Position numbers and translations under genes: made by a program | Notes under the pieces: generated by a model | What the model saw: the letters and a program-made list of their open reading frames with translations, nothing else | Database searches by the model: none | Told to the model about the DNA's origin: nothing | DNA from: Collinsella intestinalis DSM 13280 | GTDB lineage: Bacteria; Actinomycetota; Coriobacteriia; Coriobacteriales; Coriobacteriaceae | Direction: 5' to 3' | DNA length: 64,000 nt | Assembly (NCBI RefSeq): GCF_000156175.1 | Contig: NZ_GG692710.1 | Coordinates: 257,600-321,599 of the forward strand | Shown here: piece by piece, positions 24,932 through 62,497 of the stretch | How positions within the stretch are numbered: position 1 is the stretch's first letter | Layout of the letters: each line of letters begins with the position of its first letter

Positions 24932-25015
24932 GCAAAACGTTCCCCAAAACGTACACTTTGAAATCCGAATCCTGGGGTTTTGCAAAATAAGTGTACGTTT
25001 TGGGGAACGTTTTGC
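24932..25015. repeat. Group I long palindrome, copy A (27-bp perfect arms, conserved loop)
   Basis: Bases 24932-24958 and 24989-25015 are exact reverse complements over 27 bp (arm starts GCAAAACGTTCCCC). The 30-base spacer contains TCCGAATCCTGGGG followed by TTTTGCAAAATAA. The stretch 24964-24990 matches 54603-54629 at 24 of 27 positions, although the arms of the two copies are unrelated. There is no U-tract. It lies between the DUF523 gene and the ileS leader. Confidence 0.85.
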
Positions 25016-25116: not shown

Positions 25117-25122
25117 GTCGAC

Positions 25123-25415
25123 TCACAGGCGTTGATGGGGACGAGTAGGTCGGACCCGCACGGCGAAGAGAGCCCGGGGAGCTGCGATCCGGGTGCGTGC
25201 GGCCGCATCGAATATCACCCCGGAGCCGCGGCCCCAACGGCGCGTTCGCGCCCAGTAGGCGTCGCCGGGATGGTCGTCGTGACAGACCAGCCGAGTACGA
25301 GGGGAGCGCGATCGCGCGAACCTTTGAGCTGGGTGGTATAGCGAAACGCACGCGGGTCTGCTTCCCGCATTCATAGGCGCTTCGTCCCAGCTTGAGCTAG
25401 GACGGGCGCTTTTTT
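25123..25415 (+). promoter_or_regulatory. T-box riboswitch controlling ileS
   Basis: The leader has the T-box layout. Stem I begins near GATGGGGACGAGTAGG, and a specifier-loop candidate GAATATCACC carries ATC (Ile). The T-box core GCTGGGTGGTATAGCGAAAC (about 25328-25347) can form an antiterminator with CCCAG (25386-25390). The competing terminator is GCGCTTCGTCC (25377-25387) with GGACGGGCGC (25400-25409) and six T residues (25410-25415). Uncharged tRNA-Ile would stabilise the antiterminator and switch ileS on. The Ile codon agrees with the downstream gene. Confidence 0.9.
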
Positions 25416-51311: not shown

Positions 51312-51428
51312 GCCCAGCGGGAACGTATAAGATTCGGCGTTCGGTCAGTCCTGACTCGCGACGAAGGCCCCACTGGGGCCTTCTGCTCGTGCGGAATCTA
51401 CGCTGAACCTTATACGTTCCCGCTGGGC
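51312..51428 (+). repeat. Group II nested palindrome, copy 1
   Basis: The outer arms 51312-51339 and 51401-51428 are reverse complements at 26 of 28 positions, the outer 20 bp perfectly (GCCCAGCGGGAACGTATAAG). Inside, a perfect 9-bp hairpin GAAGGCCCC-ACT-GGGGCCTTC (51363-51383) sits in a core running from TTCGGTCAGTCCTGAC to CGTGCGGAATCTACG. That core recurs in two other copies, while the outer arms do not. It starts seven bases after the recN stop and may also end that transcript, although no U-tract is present. Confidence 0.85.
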
Positions 51429-51500: not shown

Positions 51501-51611
51501 GGCTGGGTCGGGTGCGTGTTTGCCGTAGATTCCGCACGCAAAGAAGAGCCCAGTGGGCTCTTCGTCTTGCGCAGGACCTGACCGAGCGGCAAACACGCAC
51601 CCGACTCAGCC
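51501..51611 (-). repeat. Group II nested palindrome, copy 2 (inverted)
   Basis: The outer arms 51501-51525 and 51587-51611 match as reverse complements at 24 of 25 bp (left arm begins GGCTGGGTCGGGTGCG). The inner 9-bp hairpin is GAAGAGCCC-AGT-GGGCTCTTC (51543-51563). Read on the minus strand its core follows copy 1: CTCGGTCAGGTCCTG, then the hairpin, then CGTGCGGAATCTA. The hairpin shows compensatory changes relative to copy 1 (GGCCCC/GGGGCC against AGCCC/GGGCT). It ends 22 bases before the lepA start. Confidence 0.85.
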
Positions 51612-54431: not shown

Positions 54432-54579
54432 CGCCTGCTTGCCGGAGTTTTGGAGCCCAGTTTTTGATGCGGCGTTGCCCTGGTTTGCCTCGCGGGCTCG
54501 CATGTACGCCGCGGGAGCCGCAAGCCGCCGCTTCGTGCGGGGTATGTTTCTTCGGATATCTGGCATAGTTCGAAACTAA

Positions 54580-54646
54580 TTACCAAAAGTCGACGAATTT
54601 TTTCCGAATCCTGGGGAAATGCAAAATAAACTTCGGGTTTTGGTAA
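54580..54646. repeat. Group I palindrome, copy B
   Basis: TTACCAAAA (54580-54588) and TTTTGGTAA (54638-54646) are perfect 9-bp arms, with weaker pairing further in (CGA with TCG). The interior 54603-54629 reads TCCGAATCCTGGGG then AAATGCAAAATAA and matches copy A (24964-24990) at 24 of 27 positions. It lies in the 265-base gap between dusB and hemW, which is otherwise empty. The rest of that gap shows no gene. Confidence 0.8.
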
Positions 54647-54696
54647 CTAGGGTTGAGTATCCGCAATCGGTACCTTGGATTTGGGGGTCGCTATTT

Positions 54697-62409: not shown

Positions 62410-62497
62410 GGTGTGCAATTGGGGACGGGTGCGTTTTACGCATCCGGCACACCGCGTTGCAAGATGTGTAAAACGCACCAATCCCCAATTGCACACC
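62410..62497. repeat. Group III long palindrome between dgkA and era
   Basis: Bases 62410-62439 and 62468-62497 are reverse complements at 28 of 30 positions (left arm begins GGTGTGCAATTGGGGACGGG). The 28-base loop begins GCATCCGGCACACC. Only TTTAG follows, so termination of the dgkA transcript is possible but weakly supported. It uses the same GGGGACGGGTGC and GTTTTAC words as the elements at 56.5 and 55.5 kb. Confidence 0.85.

Follow-up and report, generated by a model that had tools for sequence, protein, structure and literature searches.

REPtrons combine a TnpA_REP gene with adjacent and dispersed cognate inverted REP doublets (PMC3116915, PMC8266576). In these REPIN/RAYT systems there is one gene per repeat class, and the enzyme and its repeats change together (PMC3116915; PMC8266576), as is also the case, where it could be checked, for the elements described here. 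Dimerisation on targets of close to 60 bp was reported for EDxHD enzymes (PMC3943268). The Rpn (YhgA-like) nucleases are reported to be multi-paralogue PD-(D/E)XK proteins that were once called transposases (PMC5350276), a likeness to the protein family considered below.

Here, we analyzed a stretch of 64,000 nucleotides (nt) from Collinsella intestinalis (the window), in which a preliminary description had pointed out two palindromes, A and B, with a conserved interior between different arms. Copy A, a short-form element of the class named alpha below, occupies positions 24932-25015. Its 27-bp arms (24932-24958 and 24989-25015) are perfect, as originally described, and enclose a loop of 30 nt (24959-24988). 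Among the inverted repeats of the window with loops of 15-140 nt, it has the longest perfect arms, and its predicted single-stranded DNA fold is far more stable than those of shuffled sequences (z = -11). A DUF523-type gene ends 25 nt before the element, and an isoleucyl-tRNA synthetase-like gene follows it (all gene names in the window were read from translations). Copy B, a short-form element of the class beta, lies between dusB-like and hemW-like genes at 54576-54650. Its outer arms (54576-54588 and 54638-54650) read CTAnTTACCAAAA/TTTTGGTAAnTAG, while the inner arms are imperfect and this inner part is weaker; for copy B as a whole, the fold has z = -3.1 relative to shuffles. Both loops contain a core on the minus strand, which reads GCAAAACCCCAGGATTCGG at 24965-24983 in A and GCATTTCCCCAGGATTCGG at 54604-54622 in B. 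The reported match of the two 27-nt interiors at 24 of 27 positions was reproduced; the next-best 27-mer of the window matched at 17 of 27, and the interior pattern was expected 0.00 times in shuffled sequences.

Whether such elements are more widespread depended on how they were searched for. With up to three mismatches, the 27-nt interior was found only at A and B in the 1.81-Mb genome; the sister species (genome G026; the window's genome is G000) has a single match, which deviates at one position. A wider family was uncovered only via the arms or via an 18-nt core written with IUPAC freedom. BLAST with A detected its arm motif, alpha, on both strands at many loci of G000 and G026, and the arm motif of B, beta, defined a second set. 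In G000, alpha is present at approximately 10 loci and beta at 5. Alpha was counted 20 times in G000 and 18 times in G026, and beta 10 times in each (control matches, 0-2). A secondary alpha match at C3:299798 is inside an ORF and was set aside as probably due to chance. Most arm motifs form inverted pairs at a fixed distance, 121-122 nt for alpha and 111-112 nt for beta. In the short form, represented by A, B, and the G000 locus C3:1119007, the arms face the opposite way and are separated by 47 nt in alpha and by 56 nt in beta. Thus, the arms of A and B do belong to distinct classes, but they are not the unrelated one-offs of the preliminary description: each is a motif repeated genome-wide, and the two have a CCnAAAAC segment in common.

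Thirteen of the 15 G000 loci could be paired with a G026 locus by their neighbourhood. Between the two species the arms differ in concert (mostly CCTTCCCC versus CCTGCCCC, and TAATTACC versus TAGTTACC). A search of 393 further genomes of the order yielded no exact alpha pairs, and a single Collinsella MAG was the only GTDB entry to have them. In G000, 7 of the 15 elements are at most 45 nt from a gene 3' end (as deduced from ORFs that G026 also has in conserved form), a placement that resembles the preference of REP sequences.

The core links these two classes to others. In genome G037, the hairpin of the orthologous dusB-hemW spacer has perfect arms of 21 bp that differ from those of B, and its loop of 30 nt matches that of B. 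Searches were performed with a covariance model of the short form (used for searching only; one N was inserted in two seed sequences to keep the arms in register) and then with the core pattern GCRTTTSCSCAGGATTCG. The pattern matched at 57 places, distributed over 23 of the 65 Coriobacteriaceae genomes and five genera, and gave no control matches; the central part of the interior is thus present in related genomes as well, as anticipated. Many cores are flanked by inverted arms that differ per lineage; as also anticipated, arms vary between loci and species and remain inverted partners. Some arms are themselves palindromic (TTCATTCATGAATGAA in G014 and CCGAGAATATATATATTCTCGG in G019), and a G186 element has three tandem motifs on either side. 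Single core matches without clear arms, for example in G187, G189, G028, G038, and G190, may be due to chance. In the elements with a clear core (n = 39), the distance of the core is mostly 35-41 nt to one arm and 39-46 nt to the other, and a second conserved inverted pair, GAGTAGAC/GTCTACTC, is located in between. Hairpins A and B belong to a large, dispersed, and apparently undescribed family of short elements with a common core and class-specific arms.

Two other origins of the elements were considered and rejected. Core matches in viral contigs lack arms and look like chance, and no phage protein matched. An invertible promoter was rejected because the core has the same relative place in the spacer in all classes and because the spacers of one G000/G026 ortholog pair (L012 and L013), compared by eye, look co-oriented. 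Covariance-model matches in G002, G004, G006, G007, G012, G025, and G030 (L205-L210 and L216) have arms of the type ACCTGCCAAAAAGGGACAGGTTTATTTTGGCAGGT and interiors that are distantly core-like; they probably represent another family.

The elements are accompanied by a gene. In genome G206, a gene of 353 amino acids (aa) lies between two inverted elements, and the two classes of G000 each have a counterpart outside the window. The alpha gene (393 aa, near G000:C3:1044231-1045409) is 45 nt from one alpha element, and the beta gene (353 aa, C3:1029074-1030132) is beside one beta element. Their products are 26% identical (E ~1e-24). The gene family was matched in 64 of 65 Coriobacteriaceae genomes, with 2-10 paralogues (matches) each. 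The protein was annotated as 'hypothetical protein' in the records examined, and no description of the gene-element system was found in the open-access papers searched.

Once noticed, the link between gene and element was counted in an enlarged set, including the first cases, of 59 full-length homologues, which are mostly best-scoring members and not a random sample. A gene was scored as having an adjacent element if an inverted repeat that encloses a 75-130-nt loop lay no more than 450 nt away. Such a repeat was present on one or both sides of 51 of the 59 genes and was missing, at this threshold, from 8. Among the controls, the counts were 4 of 175 segments, none of 59 shuffles, and 3 of 58 genes that belong to two other families. 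The last comparison gives a Fisher p of 9e-21, a value that overstates the number of independent cases because there are several close relatives among the 59. The control genes serve as an independent check of the link, as do matches in two genomes. The two dispersed elements seen in G037 have the same arms as the elements beside this genome's own genes L259 and L287. One of the control matches, L147 in G022, carries the arm of L318, G022's own family member, as the model predicts.

Arms of gene-adjacent elements are private to each paralogue, and the loop lengths cluster at 85-99 nt. Arm similarity tracks protein similarity: arms are alike where the proteins are at least 80% identical and unrelated below approximately 65% identity (Mantel r = 0.53, p = 2e-4). 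Cognate genes for the palindromic classes of G014 and G019 and for a short element of G003 and G025 (see below) were not among the loci examined. A 1785-bp circular record ('plasmid 11') contains a truncated gene of the family beside a seemingly unrelated mobile-element coding sequence; since the gene is truncated and no element was found, we regard this record as an assembly product and not as an excision circle.

The cognate protein of approximately 350-400 aa resembles, by its sequence, EDxHD/DUF559-type PD-(D/E)XK nucleases. Its C-terminal domain matched MTES_1575 REase in 23 of 53 members and DUF559 in 10 of 53, all weakly and below curated cut-offs where these were shown. When PDB sequences were searched with the family profile, the sole match was 3r3p ('Mobile intron protein'; E = 0.015 over 54 residues, a weak match), which we take to be the catalytic domain of I-Bth0305I. 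None of the 59 homologues deviates at residues E207, D252, E267, H274, and R286, which may correspond to the EDxHD catalytic core. The N-terminal region gave no match. PADLOC gave no consistent match across members, only isolated weak matches to AbiEi and HEase, and no phage record with a matching protein was found.

These features place the system next to several known ones without making it a member of any. As in REPIN/RAYT systems, the repeats of a class adjoin the cognate gene and are dispersed in extragenic DNA as inverted pairs with a spacer. In contrast to those systems, however, the arm classes have no common GTAG-type tag (listings were read by eye), the arms are longer, asymmetric, and at fixed spacing, the core is common to all classes, and there are tens of copies at most, not hundreds. 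Moreover, the HUH tyrosine enzyme that defines RAYTs was looked for and no Y1/HUH domain (PF01797) was found in 53 members, and the system is therefore not filed as RAYT/REPIN. The earlier suggestion of a mobile, REPIN-like unit of paired REPs was thus partly borne out, by dispersed inverted pairs sorted into classes, by a cognate gene per class where this could be checked, and by near-identical full-length copies in unrelated flanks in G014, but the cognate protein lacks the enzyme domain of REPIN systems. EDxHD homing endonucleases, with which the protein shares the match to I-Bth0305I, differ in three respects: here the gene stands alone next to its sites and is part of neither an intron nor an intein, there are several paralogues per genome and dispersed families of sites, and the N-terminal region has no match. 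The cognate gene is found in spacers, amid its own elements. As insertion of the gene into a target that it cleaves was not evident, the system is not classed with the homing endonucleases. The DUF559 and MTES_1575 REase proteins are related through the C-terminal matches given above, and Rpn differs in that PF04754 matched none of 53 members. To our knowledge, neither the DUF559/MTES_1575 domain families nor Rpn have cognate dispersed elements.

Evidence of both spreading and long-term maintenance was found. One class in G014 has four copies with conserved interiors; in two of them (L335 and L338), similarity stops at the arm tips and the flanks are unrelated. No target-site duplication is visible in the four copies. 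In G000, by contrast with the 0.53-0.84 identity of orthologous alpha spacers, those of different alpha loci show 0.51 identity versus 0.47 for shuffled sequence. These values indicate that the elements of the focal genome are old and that arms, core, and length were held while spacers drifted; unrelated spacers are not expected from recent copying. A short element is also present at the orthologous G0_1119 locus in the more distant genomes G003 and G025, with changed arms (orthology was judged by ADFFINR, the gene end that the loci share). Two elements of G000 have no counterpart in the orthologous G026 spacers, the flanks of which are too diverged to define ends, and no clean empty site with a defined junction was found. 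L237 and L252 (G039) differ in their arms from L334, L335, L338, and L343 (G014) and have a longer interior (GCRTTTCCGCAGGATTCAACTGG...) in common with them. A G195 copy, L243, also has a GCRTTTCCGCAGGATTCAACTGG-type interior, and its flanks nearly match those of L334, pointing to either horizontal transfer or a more extensive unit in common.

We consider it probable that A and B represent, as dispersed non-coding elements, the alpha and beta classes of a two-component Coriobacteriaceae system, in which a nuclease-like protein would bind the arms, act at the core, and spread the elements. The protein component is represented by one divergent paralogue per class. The DNA component comprises elements with two inverted, class-specific motifs of 12-30 bp at a fixed distance around the core of all classes; one or two long elements flank the gene and the others reside in spacers, often just behind gene ends. 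A dimer of the protein could bind the two inverted arms and nick or cut at the core between them. Recognition of the arms would fix their spacing, and co-divergence of protein and arms would follow, as would spread of the element via break repair or strand transfer. As proposed for RAYT enzymes with REPINs, the protein may once have spread the element and in some lineages may still do so, while in the focal lineage the sites would now be kept through recognition by the protein and not by fresh copying. The architecture of the elements and the linkage of class to gene were observed, whereas DNA binding, cleavage, and mobility are all inferred from sequence comparisons.

The strong predicted folds of A and B, together with the identical partner arms of short-form alpha elements, are what a structured RNA would show, and the preliminary description had offered an RNA structure under selection as one explanation. 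The hairpin and its conserved loop would then act as RNA, and the arms would be kept for pairing. This was not supported by a comparison of partner arms with arms of different elements. For alpha, the mean number of differences was 2.0 between partners and 2.1 between non-partners (p = 0.38; p = 0.40 in G026). For beta, p was 0.05 and 0.47; the short beta element of G026 was out of register in this test. Since alpha partners are no more alike than non-partners, the alpha arms look like two copies of one DNA motif and not like a co-varying helix; taken together with the co-similarity of arms and proteins, this fits two copies of the protein's DNA motif better than a helix kept by pairing, although in the short-form alpha elements, given their identical partner arms, pairing may have a role. 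Pairing also does not need the same arm motif across loci, the hairpins had no Rfam match, and a search for an intrinsic terminator at A found none. A structured RNA is thus very unlikely. Arms acting as independent motif copies are compatible with a regulon, in which the protein would be a sequence-specific transcription or termination factor that binds via its nuclease fold and the elements would be operators, with a looped complex across the arms. Because the focal sites behave as maintained sites, being old, orthologous, and held while spacers drift, this is the main rival explanation, and the difference of approximately 10 bp between alpha and beta spacing, roughly one helical turn, is in line with it. 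However, the catalytic-type residues are invariant and full-length copies are dispersed in G014. Of the gene-adjacent elements, 35 are downstream and 27 upstream, and they are therefore not simply promoters; likewise, the G000 sites that follow a gene end are no fewer than those that precede a gene start. On balance, we regard a regulon as rather unlikely.

Inverted ends and dispersed copies would also be expected of ordinary MITEs of a conventional transposon, with the arms as terminal inverted repeats and the linked gene incidental. But the gene is linked to elements across dozens of unrelated arm classes, no target duplication was seen in the four G014 copies, and in the focal genome the interiors are not conserved, yet arms, core, and length are; the chance that this explanation holds appears slight, marginally below that of an RNA. 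The smallest chance of all is given to a role in defence or addiction, in which the nuclease would act on incoming DNA and the elements would mark or restrain it. Rapid turnover of specificity between paralogues, the number of paralogues per genome (2-10), and the isolated matches to AbiEi and HEase would suit such a role, but the PADLOC matches are not consistent across members and the search of phage records for the protein was negative.

More tentatively than the two-component reading of A and B itself, and at somewhat less than even chance, the family may be a new class of bacterial 'nuclease-and-landmark' system. It would comprise paralogous EDxHD-like nucleases, each with its own fast-changing specificity of 12-30 bp and with dispersed elements built on a universal core, still spreading in some lineages and domesticated as stable sites in others. 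If this is true, nearly every Coriobacteriaceae genome examined, including those of human-gut Collinsella, harbors a second, independently evolved counterpart of REPIN/RAYT based on an unrelated nuclease. The co-diverging pairs of enzyme and site, up to approximately 10 per genome, would provide natural data on the evolution of long DNA specificities. The system also makes it testable whether dispersed hairpins are spread by a neighbouring enzyme or kept as regulatory sites.

Several other structured stretches were noted in the window and in related genomes. Behind copy A, at approximately 25120-25240 and ahead of the isoleucyl-tRNA synthetase-like gene, there is a conserved leader-like stretch (GGGGACGAGTAG ... 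AATATCACCCCGGAGCCGCGG), which is also present in the Collinsella loci L143, L146, and L148. It is possibly an actinobacterial T-box, and it had no Rfam match at the gathering score. Beside DUF523-like genes of many Collinsella genomes (L149-L169), short hairpins of the form ACGCCCCATTTGAG-7 nt-CTCAAATGGGGCGT were observed, in which the stem is kept and the loop changes. Ahead of lepA, the window contains two inverted repeats (51312-51428 and 51507-51605) with different arms of 19-20 bp. Their interiors are similar to each other in opposite orientation and also resemble L173:276-393 of G027, which has yet other arms; these repeats probably constitute a second family with a conserved interior and changing arms. 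Finally, nested palindromes with CAATTGGGGA-type arms are located at 62410-62497 of the window and at L171:745-830, and L171 contains CAATTGGGGACAGGTAC, which recalls RAYT-type REP sequences.
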